Assembly (NCBI GenBank): GCA_900617975.1 | Contig: UZAE01012047.1 | Coordinates: 1 to 64,000, forward strand | From: Rodentolepis nana | Lineage: Eukaryota; Platyhelminthes; Cestoda; Cyclophyllidea; Hymenolepididae | Direction: 5' to 3' | DNA: 64,000 nt | Part shown: positions 1 to 59,000 of the stretch, piece by piece | How the letters are laid out: each line of letters starts with the position of its first letter | How positions within the stretch are numbered: the first letter of the stretch is position 1 | Notes under the pieces: model-generated | Told to the model about the DNA's origin: nothing | The model's input: the letters and a program-made list of their open reading frames with translations, nothing else | The model's database searches: none | Position numbers and translations under genes: made by a program

Positions 1-311
1 TATCAAATAGCAGGCGTTGTGAAAGTTATCATTAGCCCTATAGTTGACTTCAGGTTTCACAGAGGAGGAACATCAAAGTGAAACAAGTCGAGAGGGGGGA
101 GGAACAGAAAAGTGTTTCAAAGATATAAGAGAGACAGACACAAAGGTAGGAAAATGGTGAGGTGAGTACTGTGGAAGTAGTCGAATATGACATACAATGG
201 GGTGAGGGTAGTTTGAAGTCAGAAGTCCACTGCCAGTTAATAGACTTTTTTGCCATATGAGTATACGTTGCCCAGGGTGCACCACGTGGAGGTTAGTCTA
301 TCGCACACCCC
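1..311 (-). mobile_element. Ribozyme-headed short retroelement, copy A
   Basis: This is one of ten related copies in the window. The sense strand is minus: the 5' end is at 311 (GGGG) and the 3' end at the window edge (CTATTTGATA). It holds, in sense order, an HDV-like ribozyme, a middle part of about 160 nt that includes a CT-rich stretch, and a 3' tail whose last ~85 nt match the 3' end of the RNase H-bearing copy at 31322-32551. No open reading frame is conserved among copies. The 3' A-rich tail is cut by the window start. The copy is near full length and is the best-preserved of the set. I infer a non-autonomous non-LTR retroelement (SINE/SIDER-like). I see no A box or B box of a tRNA-derived SINE. 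Confidence 0.8.
240..311 (-). ncRNA. HDV-like self-cleaving ribozyme, copy A
   Basis: Read on the minus strand from 311: P1 GGGGUGU pairs with GCACCCU (G1.U wobble at the cut site, as in HDV). J1/2 is GCG. P2 AUAGACU pairs with AGUCUAU. P3 ACC/GGU closes loop L3 UCCACGU. P3 runs straight into the 3' strand of P1. J1/4 is GGGCAAC. P4 GUAU/AUAU (one G.U) has loop ACUC. J4/2 is GGCAAAA, with the C in the catalytic position. This is the HDV-family order and spacing: 7-bp P1, 3-bp P3, C-rich L3, GGGCAAC, short P4, GGC-A. All core positions are intact, so I predict cleavage immediately 5' of 311, the element boundary. Activity is untested. Confidence 0.82.
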
Positions 312-1385
312 ACTTAAGAAATATTGACTGGGGAATTCTTTACTTTGTTTCAAATGCCTTTTCTTCTATTTGCATTTAAATTTAAAAAGTCGCAGCTCAT
401 TCATTTTTTCTTTCTTCTTTTGGAGAATCGGTTACTCTTTACATTAACGTTAAATATGAAATTAATACATTTTTTACCTGTAATATTTCACTGAAGAAAA
501 GGGAATTAAAAAAATAGGTTAATGGCATGCCCATCAAGTAGTATTGCAGACTTGAATTGAGTAGACGTTGGGAGTAAAAGCAACGATAAGACTTAATTTG
601 TCTTACCTCACTTGAACTTTTTGGCTTCTATAGTATTTCAGTAGTGGGTCGTCCAATTTCAAAATTTCCAATTTCGCGACTCCTGTCTTGAATAACTTAA
701 CGAATATTCAATTCTTTTTAATTGGTCGTTTATTTATAGCAGCCGGTCTTACCACTTTACTTCGCACTTTTCCCCTCTGGGGTGGAAAAGCAAAATTCTC
801 TTGCCTAACACTATATGGCTTAAATGATCTCAGCGTGACCGAGTTGAGATAGCAAAAGTTAATAACTCGATAGAGCTAAATTAACAGCGCCCGCACAAGG
901 TAAACTAGCAAAGTGCCAATTTGCTTAGATTCAGTGATCTATTCATAATTTGTTGCTTGATTATTGACATAGAAGGAGACTGGCAATAAAGAATCCGATC
1001 ACCACATATCTATTTACTAAGAATTATTTATTTGTAAAGCTTTGAGTGGGAAATGATTAATTGAGATTATCAATCAGACCAAGTAAATCTGTTTTAAGAG
1101 GGTAATCAATCTAGTAGCTGACTGACAATTTCCATTGTCAGCATGGATTCCCATAATTATTATTGCCTAGCAAACGATCGAAAGATGACAGTCTTAAATC
1201 GCAGGCGAGCATTTTAACACGGGGCATTAAAATGGTCCAATAGGGCGTAAATGCGGAGGGTCATGAGGATATGGAGGATAAAAGGCGATGTTATTTAAAT
1301 TGTATAAATTAATTGAAGTATCCAACTTTTATCTAATCTCTATATTTTGCTATGTCATGTTCTAATCCGAATTTAAGTTTAATAG
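312..1385. other. No gene or repeat recognised
   Basis: This is AT-rich sequence between element copies A and B. All reading frames are closed within short distances and I see no splice-bounded exon or RNA gene. Confidence 0.5.
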
Positions 1386-1697
1386 ATATTTATTTATAAC
1401 AAATGGCAGGCATTTTGATAGTTTCATTAGCCCTTTAGGTGACATCAGGCCTCACAGAAAAGAAGAAATATCAATGTGGAAAAAATTTCGACAGGGGGAG
1501 GGGAGAAGAGTGTTTTAAAGATATAAAAGAGGCAGACACAAAGGTAGGAAGAGTACTGTGAAGAATTCGAATATGACAACCAGTGGGGTGATGGTAGTTA
1601 GAAGCCAGAAGTCAACTGCCGGTTAATAGACTTTTTTGCCGTATGAGTATACGTTGTTCAGGGTGCTCCACGTGGAGGTAAGTCTATCGCACACGCC
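1386..1697 (-). mobile_element. Ribozyme-headed short retroelement, copy B
   Basis: This is a full-length but diverged copy in the same orientation as copy A. The 3' tail (plus-strand TATTTATTTATAACAAATGG) is at 1386 and the 5' head ends near 1697. The middle has a small deletion relative to other copies: the GGTAAGGTGAG segment is shortened to GAGTACTGTG. The flanks are AT-rich and I cannot define a clear target-site duplication. Confidence 0.78.
1626..1697 (-). ncRNA. Degenerate HDV-like ribozyme, copy B
   Basis: The 72-nt length and P2 (AUAGACUU/AAGUCUAU, 8 bp), L3 UCCACGU, P4 GUAU/AUAC and GGCAAAA are kept. J1/4 has changed from GGGCAAC to GAACAAC, P3 is ACC/GGA, and P1 carries a G-to-C change. 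These hit the core, so I expect it to be inactive or weak. Confidence 0.6.
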
Positions 1698-2451
1698 AGT
1701 TTAATATATATACCATCGCGGTTACTGGGTTATTTCATTTCCACGCTGTTGTGAGCTCATTGAGAGATTTCTTACATTGACTAGTTGATCACGCTTTCCC
1801 GATAACCCTGCATTCATCATTATCAGTAAAGTCGATACCGACTAGAGCAAAAGTGCATTTACGTATCAACCTGATCGAATCGTTTATTATTATTATTCAA
1901 TTGAGGGTTCCTTTAAAAACAGAACATTCTAAGAAGGCATAACTTAGGTAGAGTTTTAAAAATAATGCCTCTATAGTTAGTACAAATACGAATCACTAAG
2001 CTTTGTTACTGTCTGTGTTTGCAAGTATTGCAAGCGATAAAAACTACCTCTGTTCAAAGTTCAAGGCACTTTTTCTAGCAAAACTACCGTTATGTCATTT
2101 TATTGAAAATGCATCAATCGGTCAAATTCGCATTTAAAATTTTCAACGATTTGAAGAGATTGTCGATAGCTACTTTTAAAGTTATTACATTTTTACATGT
2201 TAGAACCGTTTTATTTTCATCTTTATTGGACATGTTCTTTCCCTGTTTATTTCATATCTGATTTCCGCTTCTAAATCCACTACAAATTTCAATCGATTTG
2301 GAGATCTTTTGGTCTACTCGGTTTTGACCTACATTCGATACCTAATACAATTTGATTGTAATATTTGTTAACATTACGTGTTTACTTAAACTATTATTCT
2401 ATATTAATATGTGTATAAGCCTGTCTATCTATACTATTTTTTCAAATTATA

Positions 2452-29800: not shown

Positions 29801-31321
29801 AAAAAGATGAGAAATCAGTTGAAATAAAGTAAATTATCATTAGATAAAAACAATTTTGAGATGCTAAATAGGAGCTTACACGGATTAGTTATGTATGAAT
29901 ATATTGGTAGTTTAGTTGCCTCGTATTGAGACAACTTGAATCTTTTGACCAATGAATAGTAATTGGTCGTCGTGATTATCTCATGCAAGTGCAAATTGCA
30001 AAAGATATAGTAATCTGATGCGGTAATTATTTTGAGGATAACAAATCAGTTGAAACTATTCAACATAAGCGAAAATAAAATTAATAGTTTAAAGCAAATG
30101 GGAAATGCTTCCAAGCCATTGAACGATAAATTATAAGCATTGAGCTTGGGTTGAGGGTCACTGTCCCGCAGACACTCTTCTACCTTTGTGTGTCGGCCGA
30201 AAATAATCAAGACGGTTATTCAGTTATACTACTGGATACACGACGATGGGCACTGCATTTTTGACTTTCCAGACATACACATGCAAGTGCTTAAGGATAA
30301 ATTAACATAACACGAAAATTGGATAAATGCAAACACTAATCTTTATTAGTTTTTTTGAGCGTCGTAATCAAGCTTACTTTTTGGAGCATGCAGAGGAATT
30401 GAAAAGAAATGGAGATCTGTCAGAACTAGGCGAAGGAAACACGAGGTGTGGGATACCGGCTAAACGCGGGTCAACATAACCGTTCTTTGTTGTATGAAGA
30501 ACCATTGATATTAGTAGTAGGTATGTGCATGTGAAAGAGAAATATACGCATGCACAGCAAGTCTACCTTACTAATTTACCATCTCACCTAGATGGTATTA
30601 ACAGTTGCATACATGTAGGGTTTTAGGATCTTTAAATATCATTTATTGGTTACTAAAAAATAGCGAATTTTTAATTCCCCGTACTTCGTATTCGTCGACG
30701 TATAGAAATTCTTGAAAAAATCTTCGAGGTTTGATTTTGAACTAGGATACCTTGAATCTGGATAAAAATAACTTTACTCACAGGAGTGTATGAAATTAAA
30801 ATATCTTTGGTTATGTTTTGTACAGGTAAGCAAATCATTTTGACGGCTTGTAAAATCCATGGATTTGATTGGGTTGGTTTATTTGGCAATTAGAAAGAAG
30901 GGTGTGAGATGAAGGCGCAACGTAGAAGTGGTGAGAACAAGTGTCCAGGATTTATAAACTGTAAGCAATAGGCAGGTGGAATTTCGAAACTACTTGACTC
31001 AGCATTCCAAATTGGTAGAGAATGAATTAGTTAAAAATTGGGTTTCATCAAAATATTTCTCTTGCAAACACATTTTACTGAATCGATAGAGAGTGGTTAT
31101 CGCTTCTTTACATCTCTATTCCCATTTTCGTCCTCCTAAACTTCTCAAATGTTAATCCGTAAAATCGACTTCATTTGTGATTTTTTATTTTTTTTATTTT
31201 TTTTGATTTAATATAATTAATCGATTCGACTTGGTAGCACTTGGTCCGGCGTGACAATTGGTTTTGAAATAAACTAAGTTACCTTCGAGTTAGTAAAATA
31301 AGAAGCTGCTATTTGTCATAA
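26821..31321. other. Intergenic, no gene recognised
   Basis: About 4.5 kb of AT-rich DNA. The longest frame is at 28305-28652 (115 codons, plus). It shows no domain, signal peptide or splice context and I do not call it. Confidence 0.45.
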
Positions 31322-31426
31322 TATATATTTATTTCAAATAGCAGGCTTTATGATATTTATCATTAGCCCCTAAACTTTGACTTCAGCTTCCACCAAGGAT
31401 GGGGGGGGTACATTTATAGTAGTTAA

Positions 31427-32517
31427 TTAATAGCAATTCATTGGCTGTCTTCTTGCTTCCCAGTATCTCTGGCTTTCCTTCCTTGACTTTAGGGCTGGAC
31501 ACCGAATCAGGTGGGTCTTCTCCATTTCCTCCTATAGGTTACATAAAGGGAATGTGGGTTGAGTGTATACTCCCAATCTGAGAAGGTGTTTTGCCAAGCA
31601 ATCGTGTCCGGTACGTAGTCTAAACTCAGTAACGGCTTCGATTCTTGGCCAGTCGGCTATATCGGAGAGTGCCACTGTCCACTGTTTCTCCTTTCTTCGA
31701 GATTTAAGTTCGCTGCACCTTGAGGTCTTGATTTCTCTTCTGATTAAGGCCTTCATTGTGTGGAAAGTCATCGGCCGGTCCATGCATTGCAAAATCGTTG
31801 TCCCCTTCTTAGCAAGCGTGTCAGCAAGCTCATTGCCTTTAATGCCACAGTGACCAGGAATCCATTGTAGGACCACTGTTTTGTTTTTCTCTCTCAGCAG
31901 CTCATAGAGTTTTCTACATTCCTTTATCTCAGCTGTTTTGGGTGGCTCTGTTTCCAATTGAGTTTATTGCTGACTGTGAGTCCGAAAGTATCACCGCTTT
32001 GGTGAATTTCGTATCCAGGCAACATAATTGGCATAGTGCTATCCTAATGGCCTCTATTTCTCCTTCGAAAGCGGATCTATTGTGTCCCACTGGTGCGTAG
32101 AAAGAGAAGAGTTCAGAATAGACACCTGCACCAACGTTTGCTTGGCTTTCTATGTATGACCCATCAGTGAAGACTTGGAGCCATTGATCTGCAGGATAGT
32201 TGACATTGATTGTCTCAAGGGCCAGTGAGCGCATTTGCTCTGGAGGGGTGTTTGATTTCCTGAAGAAGTCAAGCAGTTGGGTGCAACACACTACATCAGT
32301 ATCTGCCAATGGGTTCATGGGAAGAGAGAGGCCTTTTGGTTTGTCATCGATTTGTAATTCTTTTTTCAGTTCTATGGCTTTCTGTATTAGGCCAGATTGC
32401 GTTTTCAGATGTCTTGGTCTATTCTCATAGGTGCTGAAGAACTTTTCCATGGGAATGCGCAGTAACTTCTCATACAGGATCAAGGCCTTTTCTTTGATAA
32501 GGGAACATATTGTGGTG
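31427..32517 (-). pseudogene. RNase H end of a non-LTR retrotransposon polyprotein, disrupted
   Basis: The RNase H fold is readable in two frames. The first (upstream) gives VFTDGS (catalytic Asp), FEGEIEAI (Glu) and LSDSQSAI (Asp). The second gives WIPGHCGIKGNELADTLAKK (final Asp), then RLRTGHDCLAKHLLRLG and PLCN. A one-base indel near 31955-31975 separates them. An in-frame TAG interrupts CNL|EEMEKTHLIRCPALKSRK; a CAG-to-TAG change would explain it. The C..C...H...C motif is the usual C-terminal zinc motif of such elements. The frame then runs to TAA at 31427-31429. The 5' end starts abruptly at the N at 32518. It is dead: it lacks reverse transcriptase and has a frameshift and a nonsense codon. 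Confidence 0.85.
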
Positions 32518-32518
32518 N

Positions 32519-32551
32519 GCACCACGTGGACGTAAGTCTATCGCGCACCCC
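32519..32551 (-). ncRNA. 5' half of HDV-like ribozyme, copy C
   Basis: From 32551: GGGGUGC (P1), GCG, AUAGACUU (P2), ACG UCCACGU GGU (P3/L3, one P3 mismatch), GC. The 3' half is missing because the retrotransposon coding sequence follows at once after an unresolved base. Confidence 0.6.
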
Positions 32552-32847: not shown

Positions 32848-32918
32848 GGGGTGGGTGATAGAATTACCTCCACGTGGTGCATCCTGAGCAACGTATACTC
32901 ATACGGCTAAAAGTCTAT
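32848..32918 (+). ncRNA. HDV-like ribozyme, copy D (partly decayed)
   Basis: P1 GGGGUGG/GCAUCCU keeps the G1.U closing wobble and has a second G.U, but the last pair is G-G. P2 AUAGAAUU/AAGUCUAU has one mismatch. P3 ACC/GGU, L3 UCCACGU and P4 GUAU/AUAC are intact. J1/4 is GAGCAAC (one change). J4/2 reads GGCUAAA, close to the form seen in other HDV-like ribozymes. Confidence 0.65.
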
Positions 32919-33141
32919 TATTCGCCAATTGACTTCTAACTTCAAACTACCATCACCCCACTGTATGTCATATTCGACTACTTTCACGGTACTCACCTCA
33001 CCTTTTTTCCACCTTTGTGTCTGTTTAAAATGCTCTTCTGTTCCCCCTCCCTCGACTTTTTCACTTTGATGTTCCCCCTCCCCTTTGTGAACCCTGATAA
33101 TTATCAAAATGCCTGCCATTTGACATATATAAATAAATAAA
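32848..33141 (+). mobile_element. Ribozyme-headed short retroelement, copy D
   Basis: This copy is in the opposite orientation: the 5' GGGG is at 32848 and the 3' tail (CTGCCATTTGACATATATAA, then ATAAATAAAT) ends near 33141, where it meets the tail of copy E tail-to-tail. It is full length. It gives rise to a 70-codon minus-strand frame that is not a gene. Confidence 0.8.
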
Positions 33142-33402
33142 TTTTAAATCAAATGGCAGGCTTTATGATTGTTGACTTCTGGCTTCACAGAAGGGAGGGA
33201 CATTCAAGTCATGAAAAGTCGAGGGGTGGGGGGGGGGACTAAAGGGTGATTCACTGATGTAAAAGAGCCGACAGACACAAAGGTAGAGAAAAAGGTAAGA
33301 TGAGTACTGTGAAAGTGGTCGAATATGATATACAGTGGGGTGATGGTAGTTTGAAATCAGAAGTCAACTGTCGGTTTATAGACTTTCCGTATGAGTATAC
33401 AT
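33142..33402 (-). mobile_element. Ribozyme-headed short retroelement, copy E, 5'-truncated
   Basis: The 3' tail at 33142 abuts copy D. The middle part is present, but the sense 5' end stops after the P4 region (GUAUACUCAUAC is visible) and lacks P1, P2 5' strand and P3. Copy F starts about 10 nt further on. 5' truncation is typical of target-primed reverse transcription, or F may have inserted at this end. Confidence 0.72.
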
Positions 33403-33411
33403 TGGCTATAC

Positions 33412-33729
33412 TCAATATTTATTTATTTCAAATGGCAGACTTTATGATAGTTATCATTCGCCCTACAGTTGACTTCAGGTTTCACAGAGGGGAGAAACAT
33501 CAAAGTCTCAAATAGTCGAGAGGGGGAACAGAAGAGTTATTTACAGATGTAATATAAACAGACACTAAGGTAGAGGAAAAGGTAAGGTGAGGTGACTACT
33601 GCGAGAGTGGTGGAATATAACACACCGTGGGGTCATATTGGTTTAAAGTACGAAGTCAAATATCGGTTTGTAGACTTTTGCCGTATGAGTATACGTTGCC
33701 CAGGGTGCACCGCGTGGAGTTATGTGTGG
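33412..33729 (-). mobile_element. Ribozyme-headed short retroelement, copy F
   Basis: Starts with the TATTTATTTATTTC tail and is near full length. The ribozyme keeps P4, GGGCAAC, the 3' strand of P1 and a CCACGCGGU L3/P3, but the 5' strands of P1 and P2 are replaced by unrelated sequence, so the fold cannot form. Confidence 0.75.
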
Positions 33730-35175: not shown

Positions 35176-35362
35176 TTATTTATTAATTTCAAATGGCAGG
35201 CGTCATGATAGTTATCAATAGCCATTTAGCAGACTTCGGAATTCACAGAGTGACAGAAAGTCGAGAGAGGGGATAGAATAACGATTCACAGATGTGAAAG
35301 AGACAGACAGACACAAAGACAGAGAAAAAGGTAAGGTGAGTACTGTGGAAGGGGACGAATAT

Positions 35363-35515
35363 GACATACAGTGGGGTCATGGTAGTTTAAAGTCAGATGT
35401 CAACTGCCGGTTAATAGACTTTTTTGCCGTATGAGAATGTAGGACATACAGTGGGGTCATGGTAGTTTAAAGTCAGATGTCAACTGCCGGTTAATAGACT
35501 TTTTTGCCGTATGAG
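35363..35515 (-). repeat. 80-bp tandem duplication inside copy G
   Basis: GACATACAGTGGGG...GCCGTATGAG occurs twice, starting at 35363 and 35443, with no visible difference over 73 nt. The duplicated unit includes the ribozyme's 3' half (P4 3' strand, J4/2 and P2 3' strand). The identity suggests a recent event or an assembly error. Confidence 0.85.
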
Positions 35516-35565
35516 TAAACGCTGCCCAGGGTGCACCATGTGAAGGTAAGTCTATCGCACACTTC
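35494..35565 (-). ncRNA. Degenerate HDV-like ribozyme, copy G
   Basis: 72-nt length, P2 (8 bp), P3 ACC/GGU and GGCAAAA are kept. P1 5' strand is GAAGUGU (two changes), L3 is UUCACAU, J1/4 is GGGCAGC and P4 is GUUU/AUAC. Probably inactive. Confidence 0.55.
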
Positions 35566-36857: not shown

Positions 36858-37175
36858 TATTTATTTATTTCAAATGGCAGACGTTTTGATAATTATCATT
36901 ACCCATTTAGCTGACTTCGGGCTTCACAGAGAGGAGGAGGAACATCAAAGGGACAAACGGTCGTGAGAAGTGACGGAATCATGACTCACAGATGTAAAAG
37001 CGACAGGCAGACACAGAGGCAGAGAAAAGGTAAGATGAGTACTATGGAATGGGTCGAATATGGCAAACAGTCGGGTCATAGTAGTTTGAAGTCAAAGTCA
37101 ACTTCAGGCTAATAGACTTTTTTGCCATATGAGTATACGTTGCCCAGAGGGCACCATGTGGAGGTGCGTACCCCC
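36858..37175 (-). mobile_element. Ribozyme-headed short retroelement, copy H
   Basis: The tail TATTTATTTATTTC begins near 36858 and the head ends near 37175. The ribozyme keeps GGGCAAC, P4 and GGCAAAA, and P3/L3 as ACC UCCACAU GGU. The P2 5' strand (AUAGACUU) has been lost, so P2 cannot form. Confidence 0.75.
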
Positions 37176-40813: not shown

Positions 40814-41015
40814 GGAGTGCGCGATAGACACGCACCCACGACCCGACTGTATGCAATATTCGATCACTTACACGGTACTCATCTTACCTTCTTCCCTATC
40901 TTCGTGTATCTCTTTTACATCAGTGAATCAACCTTCTGTTCCTCCTCTCTGTGAAGCCCGAAGTCAACAAAAGGGCTATGACAGCTAACATAGTCTGCCA
41001 TTCGTTATTAAATAA
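40814..41015 (+). mobile_element. Ribozyme-headed short retroelement, copy J, decayed
   Basis: Plus-sense copy. The head (GGAGUGCGCGAUAGAC) is recognisable, but most of the ribozyme is deleted: after ACGCACCCACGACCC it jumps to the GACTGTATGCAATATTCGAT middle. The 3' end reads GCTAACATAGTCTGCCATTC. This is an old, internally deleted copy. The 72-codon open frame over it is not a gene. Confidence 0.65.
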
Positions 41016-41341
41016 GGTCATGACCAAAACTCAATATATTGCTCAAATCTATTTAAGTAGATAGTTTTGGGAGAATAAAAGCAAAATACTTGGAGACCGA
41101 CAGCACGATACTAGTACAAGGATGTTCCGATCAGGTGAAAATTCTAAACACCGAAGTGGGATTCCATCGAAAAAAAAACATTAGAACAACCAGCACTATC
41201 ACAATTAGTTAAAGTGCTAATGTATCATCTCACAAAATCAATGGTAAACCATTTCAATTCAACAAGCAACCTCCAAGGTAACGATTTCGAAACCAATTTA
41301 GCCCAAGGAAGAAAGAAATTATTTCAAGTATACAAACGACT

Positions 41342-41347
41342 TTTATT
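41342..41347 (-). terminator. Polyadenylation signal of NAC-alpha
   Basis: AATAAA on the minus strand, 35 nt downstream of the NAC-alpha stop codon, giving a very short 3' UTR. Confidence 0.6.
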
Positions 41348-41381
41348 ATACTTCTTGAAATCCATCCGAAGCGAATGCACA

Positions 41382-41396
41382 TTAGCTTGAGAGAGA
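41382..41396 (-). CDS. NACA: NAC-alpha terminal micro-exon
   Basis: Five codons (SLSS and stop) after the acceptor ATTTCTCTCTAG. It replaces the ELTM-type end of vertebrate NAC-alpha. The unspliced frame continues to 41254 and does not resemble the family. Confidence 0.75.
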
Positions 41397-42084
41397 CTAG
41401 AGAGAAATGATTACATTGAATTATACATCTTACCATAATCGCGTTGACAATATCTTTGTCATTCTTTAGCAAAGCATTTATTGCTTTGGCTCGGGAAACA
41501 TTTGCTTGAGTCATAATAAGCTCAACGTCTTTATCCTCAATCCCAGATGGGTCACCAATGATTTCTTCGTCATCTTCAAGTTCAGCGATGGCTGTCTTAG
41601 CAACTGAGTCACCTTCCTTGGCTGGCTTATTTTCCTTAGCAGCGTTAGCAAGAGTCTGAGATCTTAGCTTTTCAACGGCAGCAGCCTGTGCTTGTGTTGA
41701 CATATCCTCGATTTTTGCTTCACCAAAGATAATGTAGGTATCAATATTTGGGGCCTTATAGACTTCGGCGTTGCTGATGACAAACATGATTGCCTTGGCT
41801 TTGCGAATAGTAACACGACAAATACCAGGCACAAGCTTCAAATTCAACTTTGCCATAGCCTTGCGAGCCTTCTTTTCACCACGGGATTGTTTGCTAGAGC
41901 CATAATCGAAGGCATCACCCTTTTTATCCTCGTGAGTATCTTCGGAATCAGAGCTCGAGGACGAAGCTGCCACCTTCTTTTCAGCTGCGTCAGGCTTCTT
42001 TTCAGAAACGTCAGACTTCTTTTCAGCTGCATCAGATTTCATATCAGTTGCTTTCTTTTGAGCCTTCTTGCCATTAGCTGCCAT
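41382..42084 (-). CDS. NACA: Nascent polypeptide-associated complex subunit alpha
   Basis: Complete gene in two exons: 42084-41434 (217 codons) and 41396-41382 (SLSS then TAA), with a 37-nt intron at 41397-41433 (GTAAGA...TTTCTCTCTAG). The product is 221 aa against 215 in human. It pairs with the beta subunit (BTF3) at the ribosome exit and prevents mistargeting of nascent chains. The N-terminus is acidic/lysine-rich with a DAAEKK-type repeat (residues 18-37) and a Ser/Asp cluster (41-50). The NAC domain spans about 67-132: [54 protein letters not shown]. The UBA domain is at about 182-217 ([27 protein letters not shown]). Reading through the intron would append an unrelated hydrophobic tail, so the spliced form is preferred. 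The family's usual end after NAIM is similarly short. Confidence 0.95.
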
Positions 42085-53000: not shown

Positions 53001-56000
53001 GCACGTTGGCCTAGATTGGCACTGACACCTGCCTGAGTCCAAAAGGGGTAGAAGAGGTAGAACAAATTTTGTAATACTTTTACCTTTGTAATTGGTCGGC
53101 GGTTTATCCGTAGTTTAGATCAGGTACTACATGGGTGTGAATTCCTGATAAGCTAGTCTTATCTTTTTATGAATTCTTCTAGTTGACCCTCCCCCCACCC
53201 ATAAAGCTATTTTAATGCGCTGCTCAACTAACGCACTTACATAAGCTTCTATGAGCATATCTCTAATAAGAGATGAGGAAGATGGCGACTGTGTCATGAT
53301 TATCTGCAATGTAGAAAGCAGTTTTGAAATGGTCTAGCGCAGAATAACACAATCTTGTCAAACTGTTGACTTTCTAAACCATTTCGAACTTAAACTCACA
53401 ATCGCAGATGGATAACACACCTCTTCTGTGCTAAAAAGTGCCTAAGGAGATCATAAAAAGGCCCAGCATATGGGAATTCGATAATTCCTATAAATGGATA
53501 AACAACAGTAGGTAAATTGAAAGTTCGCCTCGTTGGCATAATAAAGTTTCTCTCATAGAAATTACGGATATTTATTAATACCTGTTTATTAGTAGAGATA
53601 GAAGGTAGTAAACCATTAGGACAGGTGGTTGCATAGTTATAATTGAGAGGGAATAGTTTGAGGAAGGGAGCGGACATTTGGCTCATGAGATTCTGAGAAA
53701 TTTCTTATTTTCCCCTACATCTGAAGAATATATACTGCTGTTTTTTTTCAAAAGGAACATTTGAAGAGACTCCCATTGAATCTGGTGTCAATATTAATGA
53801 TGATTCATTAATAAGATCCAAAATACCAAAATCGCACATCTTCGAGATGTTTTAAGAGTCAATGCTAATCGCTTTGGAGGGCGTTGTGTTAGATATCGGC
53901 TTGCATTCATATTCGACCTCGTTTTCTAACATTTCAGAAACAATTTTTAGTTAGAATGAGTAAAAGAAAACACTAATCCGGGGCTAAGTAAGCGTTTTTA
54001 GTAAACCATTTATAAAATGTGCCAGTTTAATGCACATAATTTCGAATCTAAGGAAAGGAACAATCAACCACTTTATTTCTTACCAGAAAGTTTTTACTAC
54101 CAAAACTTCCTGTTTGTCATCTGGTACTGTCGTTAATGTCCAATTATCAGTCTTTTTTCACTTATTATTTGGATACACTTATGTGTTCGAGATTTTACCA
54201 ATCAAAAATGCTGTGTCTAAACTTTCCTCTAGTATGCCCTCCGTTTATTTATCTATGAGTTATTGTCATCGTTGACGCGTAAGGTCAATCCGATATCTGC
54301 TTTCTCATATTATTTGTGTCTCATTCCATTTAGCCATCAGATGATCATTTGTTGATCGGTCATGTGACCATATTTGAACCACCCATATGTGGTATGCCAT
54401 GTCCTTTATTTATATCCCTTTTAAGTAAGTTACTGAATATTCTAGCTATTAGTGATTGACTTCTCTAAAGAGATAACTTCTGGACAAGAATTCCGAAGCT
54501 TTGGGATGCCAATTTTTATTCTATAATCAATCTATCTCTTTCATTTATGGCTTGAATGTCGTTCTCTTCTGCTTTATTTCATCTTCGAGTTTATGTGCTT
54601 ATACTTTGTTCAACATTTAATCGTGATGGTCGAGAAAATCGGTGCAGGGGGAGCATGAATAAACCTTAATTTGAATAAACATGTTGCACCCATGGCCTCA
54701 AGCAGGAATACAGACTTGAATTGTGAAGCATTTTAAAAGGACTTGATAAAGTTCCACTTTAAACACAACTGTACATCAGGTGAATAACGGCTCGCCTTTT
54801 TTCTTCTCTAAGTCGCCTGGTGGATTATGTTACCTTCCCTCCTGTTGAAATGTTGTATCACTAGAAAAAATTAGTGGATTTCAGTATTTGTTAAACGTGT
54901 TAGTTTTTCTCTCAATATGATGCTGGAAGTATTTTTTATATTTTTTGCTGCACTGAGCATTGATTAGGATGCAGGAACAGTGTTTGACATACCTTGTCTC
55001 AAACTTATCTTATTTAACGGATTTCTTTGACAGCTATGGGAAATCGAAATCCCCAACTTGTCCAATTTTGTACTTTCCATAGTGCGAAATAAGCCCCTTT
55101 ATAAATTCGTTAGCGCCTTAGGAGCTTAGAATTTAACCACTGTCATGGATTTCTGGTGCATCATCCATTGAGTTATAGCTGTTACTTTAAGGTTCTCACT
55201 TTCAAGTACTTTTGGTATGTACCCATCCATTTTGTGATTCTTTTTAAATCTATTATTCCATTTTTTAACCAAAATTATTATATTTATTAAGTAAAGTCTA
55301 TTCTTTGGTCTAGTTGAGTTACCCTGCTCCCTTTCAAGTTTATGAGTTACGTCAAAGGTAAAAATTCGCTCAATCTTGGTCGCCAGGTTTGACCAATGAG
55401 GGTGCAAAGATCTTATAACTCTCATTTCATTGGATATTACTTTCGGGATAAACATATTGCTCTTACTCTCGTTTTTGGCACAAATCGCTTTGTCCTCTTT
55501 TTTACTTCTCCAAATATTTTTTTTTCAAATTCTATGCAGTGTATATTCCTGTTATTTTTCTTTCCTCTTTCCATCGCCCACTTCTGGCTCAAATAGTAAC
55601 GAATTAAAAATGATTTATTAATAATTCAAGCTCTCATTATCGTAATCAGATAGTTATGTATATATATGATATGATGATGATATATGATGTCTTATGATTT
55701 GGGTTTATTATTTGCGACTTTTAAGCTTGAAAAAAATATTTTAAAAATTAGTGAAATTATAATCAGTCTTCTTATATAATAGGGTTACGAAAATAGCATT
55801 CATTCATTTAAAAGGGCAGGCGTTTTAATAGTTATCATTATCCCTTTAGCTGACTTAAGGCTTCACAGAGGGGAGGAACATCAAAGTGAGAAGAGATCGA
55901 AAGGTGAGGGAACAGAAGAGTGATTCACATTTGTAAAAGAGAAAAAAAAGTAAGGTGAGTACCGTGGAAGTGGTGGAGAATGACATACACTGGGGTCATG

Positions 56001-59000
56001 ATAGTTTGAAGTGGGAAATCAACTGCGGTTAACAGACTTTATTGGTGTATGAGTATACGTTGCCCAGGGTGCACCACGTGGAGGTAAGTCTATCGCACAC
56101 CCCATGAAAATAACATGGAGTTTCGTTCAATATTGAAATGAGCCCTAAGCATTCTCTTGTAGCTTTTTCAAGCGACTGGAGACCCCACAATGGCATTTGC
56201 GGCATTAGGCTCTCCGTAGCAGTTCTTAAGACTCTTTTGTTTCTATTCGAGTCTAAACTTCGCTATCTTTCGAATTTTGCCCAACTCATTTGTGAAAGTT
56301 TAACTTACCTTCAACTACTACTAATTCATTCCTCGGTGTCTGCATGTGCAACACAGTTAGAATGGTGAAGGGAAATTCTTATCTTTTTGTAGTAGCTGGA
56401 GTTTACACTAGTTGGTACCTAATAAGGTCATATAGTAGTTGCTTCTCTTCGTGTCACTAAAAAGTTACCTCGTGTAGGTTTTTTTTCTTCTGGGGGATAT
56501 TGCATTGAAATGCCTTGCTTTTAAACGCACTTTGCGATCTCCAAACTGTATACGGTACACCTAATGATAATGGTTACTACCCCGTCAGACTATTTTTTCA
56601 CTTACCTGATCATATGTTTGAGTATTACCGGGGTCTTCCGAAAATCCTCCCAGGACGGTTAAACGGAAAACCCCATTTCATGATATCATTTTTTTCGGGC
56701 GCTTAGTCGTGTGGGTGAACTTTCGGAAAACCCCCGGTACTTATAAAGTATGCTAAGTGAAGGCTATTTAAAGACCTAAGAAAATACACACGTGAACCTC
56801 AATTATGCGGTGGCTTTTAAATTATTTAAGTCCTCCGATATACCAATGTGATATGGTTCATAGTGTCAGCTTACTCATTAATGTTAACTTCGGGGGGTGG
56901 GGAGTTGGAGCCAATGATTAACCGGTGAAATGAAATAGGTATTCACGCACAGATGCTCCGAAACAACCGCTTCGGGTAATTCGATAACTTCGCCCAGTTC
57001 TGATTTACCTCTCTTATACGAATAGTCATGGAAAGACTAATGGCAATTTCTTAATTCTTCTCTTTTTTTTCTTAACTCCTTTGCGCATCATATTGGTGGA
57101 TTTTTAGGCTGAGAGGAATGATGATTATTTTATTTGTGTTTTAGTCACGAACACTGAAGAGGGAAGAACTGTCCATTCCTTCAGTTCGAGACTGTGTCGC
57201 ATTGCACATGGGTGGTTTGCACAGCCTGACGCTTCCTCTTCCTAAGATGCCCACATTTCTCTTCAAGACCCTGGCAAAATTCCTCCAACAGTTGACCGGT
57301 ACTCGTCAGCCCCCTGTACGGCGACCGCATTCTTGTACTCCGACGGCTACAGAAGGTGGTGGAGGAGGCGGTGGGGGAGAACAAGATGCTGGATTGCCAG
57401 ATGATGTTCTCTTCAGCCCCCAGCCGGGCTCACTTGCCACCTCCCAACTCTTTGGCTCTACGTCTTCCATTTGCTCGGTTCATGAGACCCAACCGCATCT
57501 TTTCAAATTTGTCAATGATTGGCGGCTTGTGGAAGAGTTTGAATGGCTTAGGTTAGTACTTTTGTTTGACTTTGGCTAATCGAAAGTGGGAAAAAAATGT
57601 TGTCCAGAAGTCGTGATTTCGATCCTCATCGATTCATGTTCCATGGTGTGTTTTTTCCGTTTCTGTTGAAGAAGAGGAGTGGAAAAGTACAAATTTATCT
57701 TAAGAAAAACGCAGGGGTGTCTACTCTTGATAGTAGGCAATCAGACAATTGTTTAGAGTGATTGGCAGTATAAGTGGGAAAACTTAACTGTCATTTCGAA
57801 AAGATTTATGCTAAATCAACTCTATTTTAGGTTACCTAAGAGAAAGCATGCTGAATGAACGGTGACTGCACTTTATCAAGCTCATTTTTTGTTGGTCGTT
57901 CAGTGAATGGTGTTTTTCTGACTATACTCTGGAATCCTTTTAATTTTAATCATTGGCGATATGTCTTTGTGTCCCCCTGGTGGGTTCTAATGCGTTACAA
58001 CAGCACATTGTATTGCAACGTATTTAAATCTATGCACCTGTATGCATGTGTTAACCAGCTAAGTAGTATCAGGTATCTTAGTGCCAAGATTCATTCAAAT
58101 TGTAGATCACTCAATCTCAGTCAAAAAAGTTCCTAATCACAATATCACTTTGAAATTTATTATTTAATAGTTCTCGTGTCTATTGATTTTGACCAGTTTC
58201 GCATCTGCAAAAGTTGCACAATTTTTTGCTTTTGCCCACTACCACCAGTCGAGATAAAAAGCGCAACTTCTTTGAAAGTAGTGTGGGCCATATTGAAGTT
58301 CCAAGCATGTGTCATATCAATGCATTTTTACTGGACTTACGTTGGCATAAACTTAATATATATTGGAAAGGTTAATATCTACCTTTATGCGGTTTTGGAA
58401 GGGAATCTAATTTATTGTTTCTATTGCGCATTTGAATTCGCCAACCTGCAGCGCTATTGTTAAATGAATCCATTAAGTTCCATATCTATTGACTTATCTA
58501 TTTTATACCTGTGTACTTTCCAACTTAGCCCTCATATAAAATATGCGTATATCCTGTGGACCTCATAATATACTTACTGTGTTTGTGGTGACTGTGTTGA
58601 AGTAAGCGAGCTTCCTGTCTCTTCCTTAAATTTTATGTCTCTTATGCTGTGATATACAATGCAGTAGAATATGACTTTTTAACCGAAAGTGTATATACTC
58701 TTCTCTTCCTTTTCCACACAAAATTAAAGCTAGTGCAAGAGGGACTGATAGTCCGCAGGTTGAACTATTTGGGTATCACGTGTCGTAGGTACTGAGCTTC
58801 ACTGTGCTGTCATTCTTTAAGCATGCCCTCTTCACACCATCTTTTCAAAAATTGTCTCAACTAAGCCTTCCCAATTATCCATCCTTCCTATTAGATCACT
58901 AAATCAGAAGCAACCATTAAGATCGCTGCAGCAATATTTCTCACGTTCACTCATCTAAGTAACCCAGCATTTGTTGATCTTCCTTCTATTTGAATTGAGG

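Follow-up and report, generated by a model that had tools for sequence, protein, structure and literature searches.

Locus

The stretch analysed here comprises 64,000 nt of the assembly GCA_900617975.1 of Rodentolepis nana, the dwarf tapeworm, a cestode (contig UZAE01012047.1, positions 1 to 64,000 of the forward strand) and is called the window below. Its first 311 nt hold, on the minus strand, a copy of a short non-coding retroelement of ~315 nt, the first ~75 nt of which resemble the self-cleaving ribozyme of hepatitis delta virus (HDV). This copy is referred to as the reported copy, and nt positions are counted from the first G of the element (G1). The features at this end of the window are as follows.

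240..311, minus strand: HDV-like ribozyme of the reported copy, matched by Rfam RF02682 and RF00094, with predicted cleavage directly 5' of G1 at 311
1..311, minus strand: the reported copy of the short element (short interspersed element, SINE, or SIDE), 93.7% to the consensus; its 3' tail runs off the contig start and apparently continues on contig C311
312..325, minus strand: 5' copy of a 14-nt target-site duplication, flush with G1; its partner follows the 3' tail in locus L002

Ribozyme fold

Read on the minus strand from 311, the segment contains all the parts of an HDV-like fold in the right order, as a sequence-only reading of the window had claimed. P1 is formed by nt 1–7 and nt 32–38, with a G.U pair at the cut site. 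P2 begins at nt 11 and has 7 bp in the reported copy against 8 bp in the consensus. P3 (ACC/GGU) is continuous with P1' and is followed by the L3 loop UCCACGU, then by GGGCAAC, P4 and GGC-A. From general knowledge of HDV ribozymes, C60 is taken here to be the catalytic J4/2 cytosine. It is present in 67 of 70 copies, and A43, a key unpaired position, is present in all 70. These 70 copies are 57 of the 60 full copies (the three most diverged, from L053, L059 and L072, were dropped) together with 13 copies from L095–L103.

At the curated (gathering) cut-offs of Rfam, the whole 64-kb window gave no match. The search was rerun on window positions 1–2000 only, using an E-value threshold and permissive filters. 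RF02682 then matched 240–309 (minus strand) with 41.6 bits (E = 8.5e-6), just below its cut-off of 44 bits, and RF00094 matched 240–313 (minus strand) with 34.5 bits (E = 0.0099; cut-off 50). A second copy, at 1626–1695 (minus strand), scored 27 bits with RF02682, and no other Rfam family matched in the element. The covariance-model search proposed in the sequence-only reading accordingly recognises the reported copy with both models, at scores below both cut-offs. Eight of 20 sister loci pass the cut-off of RF02682, with 44.5–47.1 bits. RF00094 was also run against the whole genome, where 86 of 18,786 candidates were scored and 16 matched at E <= 0.1; all ten of the matches that were cut out lie in members of the short-element family. 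A loose home-made regular-expression descriptor matched only family copies in the window, at 311 and at 56101–56103 on the minus strand. The specificity of this descriptor is modest, with 5 matches in 30 x 64 kb of Markov shuffles on one strand, or ~0.3 per window on both strands. The exact 26-nt ribozyme core gave no match in the viral contigs.

Conservation of the ribozyme depends on the age of the copies. According to the comparison of the 60 full copies, the ribozyme is nearer to the consensus than the body in all 21 copies below 86% identity and in 12 of the 13 copies at 86–94%, and in only 13 of the 26 copies above 94%. The pattern is as expected for selection on the source elements or their lineage. 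We infer that the reported segment is a real and nearly exact HDV-like ribozyme, for which self-cleavage is predicted from the fold and from the insertion ends described below.

Element boundary and target-site duplications

The consensus, built from 36 full-length copies, has 329 positions including the tail. Its 5' end, GGGGUGUGCGA..., is that of the predicted cleavage product, and its 3' end is ATTTGATATAAATAAATAAATA. The 14 nt at window 312–325 recur directly after the 3' tail on contig C311 (L002). C311 begins with a copy identical to the reported one, and the two contigs therefore seem to hold the two sides of one insertion.

Fifty full-length copies were found, and the 46 whose flanks could be used were tested for target-site duplications at a score threshold of >= 8; the reported copy, truncated at its 3' end where the contig starts, is not among them. 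Duplications were detected in 39 of the 46 copies, against 25 of 897 mismatched flank pairs. When three copies that repeat another place (L045, L014 and L042) are left out, 36 of 43 copies have duplications. The duplications are ~8–16 nt long, and 26 of the 36 are flush with G1, that is, they abut the predicted cut exactly. The sequence-only reading had placed the element boundary at the predicted cut, with the ribozyme defining the 5' end. These flush duplications agree with that placement, as does the 14-nt duplication of the reported copy, which abuts 311.

A fixed transcription start site would equally yield uniform 5' ends at G1. Under this alternative, transcription would begin at G1, driven by an internal promoter in the 5' ~75 nt, and the ribozyme fold would be a by-product or of secondary importance. 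A precedent is the Pr77 segment of trypanosomatids, described as both promoter and ribozyme (PMC4035085). A promoter alone, however, predicts neither a nested double pseudoknot matched by two covariance models nor a P1 that starts at the element end, and we regard this explanation as improbable. By analogy with Pr77, the segment may play a dual role, as ribozyme and promoter at once.

Probable partner LINE

Copies of a long interspersed element (LINE) run upstream from RNase H through reverse transcriptase and endonuclease according to domain matches. In L074, L068, L066 and L052, the LINE 5' end is GGGGUGCGCGAUAGACUU... followed by the ribozyme, nearly the same as the 5' end of the short element, and the LINE copies L063 and L072 match the ribozyme from nt 10. 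In L074 an in-frame ATG follows ~105 nt downstream. The short element aligns over its nt 1–97 and nt 245–325 with the two ends of the LINE. The alignment of the 3' tail (nt 245–325) has a score of 45, whereas the maximum in 200 shuffles is 17. No part of the body (nt 98–243) matches the LINE copies L049 and L074 at an E-value below 0.28. Since both ends are shared but the interior is unmatched, the short element looks like a LINE-ended composite and not a plain internally deleted LINE, although both LINE copies compared hold an assembly N. From these shared ends, the LINE is the likely partner that would mobilise the short element in trans.

The best protein matches of the LINE are R. nana proteins. 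Two of these, P0002 and P0089, match loci L049 and L051 without a mismatch over 175 and 182 consecutive residues, which agrees with R. nana as the host; an arthropod host, supposed at first, was rejected. Relatives of the LINE are present in Hymenolepis microstoma according to protein matches. The LINE endonuclease is also 46–51% identical, with 94–98% query cover, to proteins of three spiders and a psyllid (P0021, P0022, P0025 and P0033).

The element is a SINE/SIDE in the wide sense: it is short and non-coding, has target-site duplications and carries a LINE-derived 3' tail. Its size, duplications and LINE tail are also consistent with an ordinary SINE transcribed by RNA polymerase III (pol III), with a 5' end that resembles a ribozyme by chance. 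The A and B boxes of such an element, with motifs taken from general knowledge, were searched for and are no better than chance, as 979 and 666 of 1000 shuffles were equally good. The short element contains an internal TTTTT. ARAGORN detected no tRNA gene in 20 loci, and a tRNA origin of the element was rejected on this result. The absence of any other Rfam match in the element (window 1–2000) and the nearly identical 5' end of the partner LINE also oppose a pol III SINE, which we consider highly improbable. As no A or B box stands out and an internal TTTTT is present, co-transcription by RNA polymerase II is likelier than transcription by pol III.

Proposed cycle

Taken together, these results make it very probable that R. 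nana carries a non-coding retroelement of ~315 nt, whose 5' end is processed by an HDV-like ribozyme and which is mobilised in trans by a LINE with the same tail. A copy would be transcribed within a longer host RNA, without a pol III promoter of its own. The ribozyme would then fold and cut just upstream of the first G, so that the RNA starts at the element end and retains the ribozyme, as the fold and the insertion ends suggest. The protein of the partner LINE would be recruited in trans by the common 3' tail. Finally, target-primed reverse transcription would insert the copy between duplications of ~8–16 nt, in many cases joining its 5' end to the target exactly at the predicted cut position. 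The same ribozyme probably also forms the 5' end of the LINE. A ribozyme at one end and a tail at the other, both in common with a LINE, would be a clear recipe for making an element mobile in trans when no pol III promoter is evident.

Several results weigh against this interpretation. The reported copy and 12 of the 20 sister loci fall below the curated cut-offs of Rfam, and none of the 16 genome-wide RF00094 matches is over the cut-off. Extra nucleotides precede G1 in 10 of the 36 duplications (one nucleotide in three cases, two in four and three in three), and 7 of the 43 distinct copies have no duplication at the threshold used. The lack of an evident pol III promoter is negative evidence only, and the link between the LINE and the short element is one of sequence, not function. 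Covariation among the 70 copies is not clearly above that of shuffles: the score is reached by 43 of 500 shuffles, standard pairs occupy 95.2% of cells against 95.1% in shuffles, and three pairs are changed on both sides against 2.1 in shuffles. One P2 pair shows a double change from U-A to C-G in two copies. The covariation count is uninformative, the copies being too alike and probably mostly dead. As it is not clearly above shuffles, copy-level covariation was used neither for nor against the fold.

Copies in the window and in the genome

In the 107 Mb searched, 9,649 places match the 5' 45 nt of the element with <= 3 mismatches (4,857 and 4,792 on the two strands), whereas the reversed 45-nt pattern gave no match in the same search. 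The number 9,649 includes some LINE copies, as the LINE 5' end differs from the pattern at 2 of 45 positions. The count of LINE-type 5' ends, 4,687, overlaps that of the short element and was not used. The family had been called abundant from the sequence alone, and these counts bear this out.

Copies were also listed by BLAST in the window and in a systematic sample of 20 stretches of 2.5 kb (47.5 kb without N). Of the 20 copies found, 10 start at G1 or align from nt 3–4, six do not, and four run off the sample edge. Matches to the element span 2,873 of the 64,000 window bases (~100 of these belong to the LINE) and 3,264 bases of the sample. At ~1 copy per 4–7 kb in the stretches read, the family amounts to a large set of natural HDV-like ribozymes. 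The further copies and the LINE part in the window are as follows.

1387..1697, minus strand: second, older short-element copy, with the ribozyme at its 5' end (RF02682, 27 bits)
31310..32518, minus strand: 3' part of the partner LINE, with RNase H (PF00075 in two open reading frames); the last ~80 nt match the short-element 3' tail by alignment
32519..32551, minus strand: ribozyme start (nt 1–33) adjoining the LINE fragment across a single N, probably an assembly gap
32848..33139, plus strand: short-element copy, with the ribozyme at 32848–32922
33171..33404, minus strand: short-element copy without the first 41 nt
33416..33725, minus strand: short-element copy, aligning from nt 15
35176..35565, minus strand: short-element copy with an internal direct duplication of 79–80 nt
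36858..37165, minus strand: short-element copy, aligning from nt 19
40841..41015, plus strand: partial short-element copy (nt 109–217 and 241–322)
55798..56103, minus strand: short-element copy, with the ribozyme at its 5' end

Several LINE copies elsewhere are broken by single Ns like that at window 32519. The window also contains a gene similar to that of the alpha subunit of the nascent polypeptide-associated complex (NAC), with NAC and UBA domains, at 41254–42084 on the minus strand.

Arrays of 5'-end fragments

Ragged fragments of the element's 5' part occur repeatedly, in sense orientation, in L083 (2034–2500, minus strand), L055 (a LINE; ~310–630, plus strand), L008, L105 and L106. Two ribozyme cores 29–59 nt apart have 1,236 exact matches genome-wide (208 forward and 1,028 reverse), and the reversed pattern has none. 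Two cores 52–77 nt apart have 149 matches (18 forward and 131 reverse). Among those listed, many consist of two short steps, and a class of 69 nt with another fragment between the cores is recurrent. Array matches are ~5–7 times commoner on the reverse strand of contigs, and single ribozymes are strand-balanced. This skew may stem from the assembler. L105 (G000:C239:26500-28900) appears to be a composite of ~1.57 kb that ends in a normal 3' tail and is apparently flanked by a duplication of ~20 nt, as read by eye; it seems to have moved as one unit. Identical joints are found on many contigs among the matches listed, which indicates that composites have multiplied.

Junctions between the fragments show a preferred spacing. 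From 61 distinct junctions listed, 10 forward ones, seven short backward ones (2, 2, 2, 4, 4, 12 and 21 nt) and one of 171 nt were dropped. Of the remaining 43 jump-backs, 32 are at 36–51 nt, 10 at 80–93 nt and one at 135 nt, and none is at 52–79 nt. When the starts and ends were shuffled, the gap at 52–79 nt was empty in 5 of 2,000 runs. By a second method, which used adjacent BLAST pieces with steps of more than 15 nt and excluded L001–L008, L045 and L080, 72 steps were obtained, none between 50 and 75 nt. Outside the large arrays this method gave four events, of 36, 76, 79 and 80 nt. Many joints derive from a single array family that recurs in L083, L105 and L106 and are therefore not independent events. 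No excess of microhomology was seen: 52 of the 75 joints have none, and so do 56% of random controls. Self-comparison of the first 170 nt gives matches of 0.18–0.30 at lags 39–43 and 80–83. Lags 45, 78 and 84 (0.34–0.38) are among the ten highest, and this weak self-similarity weakens the reading of a fixed step; some homology effect may lie behind the periodicity.

It is possible, although we hold it to be doubtful, that stuttering target-primed reverse transcription repeatedly duplicates the 5' ends, with their ribozymes, of both the short element and the LINE in steps of ~41 (or 82) nt and with no excess of homology where the fragments join, which would build arrays of core fragments, some of them transposing and multiplying as new composites. 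The template would, for example, be re-engaged at a fixed distance during reverse transcription. The assembly is broken by gaps, and the array structures may therefore be provisional, pending long reads. If the quantised 5' duplications are real, they would give a handle on how reverse transcription of a LINE ends at a structured 5' end, which is poorly understood. Of all the observations, the arrays most deserve further attention and are perhaps the most novel.

A small non-coding element with a predicted self-cleaving motif also recalls retrozymes, and replication via circular RNA was considered. Standard copies, however, have a single ribozyme, flanking duplications and a LINE tail, and the array units are ragged-ended and not of unit length. 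A retrozyme-like element is thus extremely improbable. A close head-to-tail pair in L035 was tried as a retrozyme dimer and rejected; the duplication CTTTAGGCAACA(G) flanks each of its copies, as would be expected of two insertions.

Comparison with known systems

The literature consulted comprises PMC3774820, PMC3414825, PMC7761336, PMC4035085, PMC7653826 and PMC6880638. A literature search combining ribozyme, tapeworm and retrotransposon found no paper, and no published description of the R. nana family was found by titles and abstract starts among the matches listed, in which subscription papers are thinly covered.

Tandem arrays inside non-LTR (long terminal repeat) elements are known from the variable number tandem repeat (VNTR) of SVA and the 5' monomers of mouse L1. 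The R. nana arrays differ from these in that their units are ragged pieces of the 5' end, separated by backward jumps of ~41 or ~82 nt.

Metazoan retrozymes, like the element described here, are small non-coding elements with ribozymes (PMC7761336). They differ in having hammerhead ribozymes and circular RNAs. The trypanosomatid elements NARTc, RIME and SIDER carry Pr77 HDV-like ribozymes and have L1Tc/ingi partners (PMC4035085), and the likeness lies in the ribozyme-bearing short elements. In SIDER2, two ribozyme segments are present in tandem (PMC4035085). These elements, which belong to another phylum, have been described as LINEs that are truncated or have degenerated; in the R. nana element, by contrast, the body (nt 98–243) is unmatched in two LINE copies.

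The R2 and R2/R1 SIDEs of Drosophila also combine a 5' HDV-like ribozyme with a LINE 3' end, and they are described as trans-mobilised and not transcribed by pol III (PMC3414825). Cleavage by the R2 and SIDE ribozymes of Drosophila was demonstrated in vitro (PMC3414825). In contrast, the Drosophila SIDEs reside in ribosomal DNA and are co-transcribed with 28S, whereas the R. nana family is dispersed, with variable duplications and 9,649 close 5' ends, LINE copies included. The partner LINE fits the same plan as the R4, Dong, Baggins, RTE and L1Tc LINEs, which have 5' HDV-like ribozymes. As LINEs with ribozymes and their short derivatives are known in Drosophila and trypanosomatids, this kind of system is already known and the R. 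nana pair is a variant of it, which would extend ribozyme-defined retroelement 5' ends to a pair of a LINE and a short element in a flatworm.
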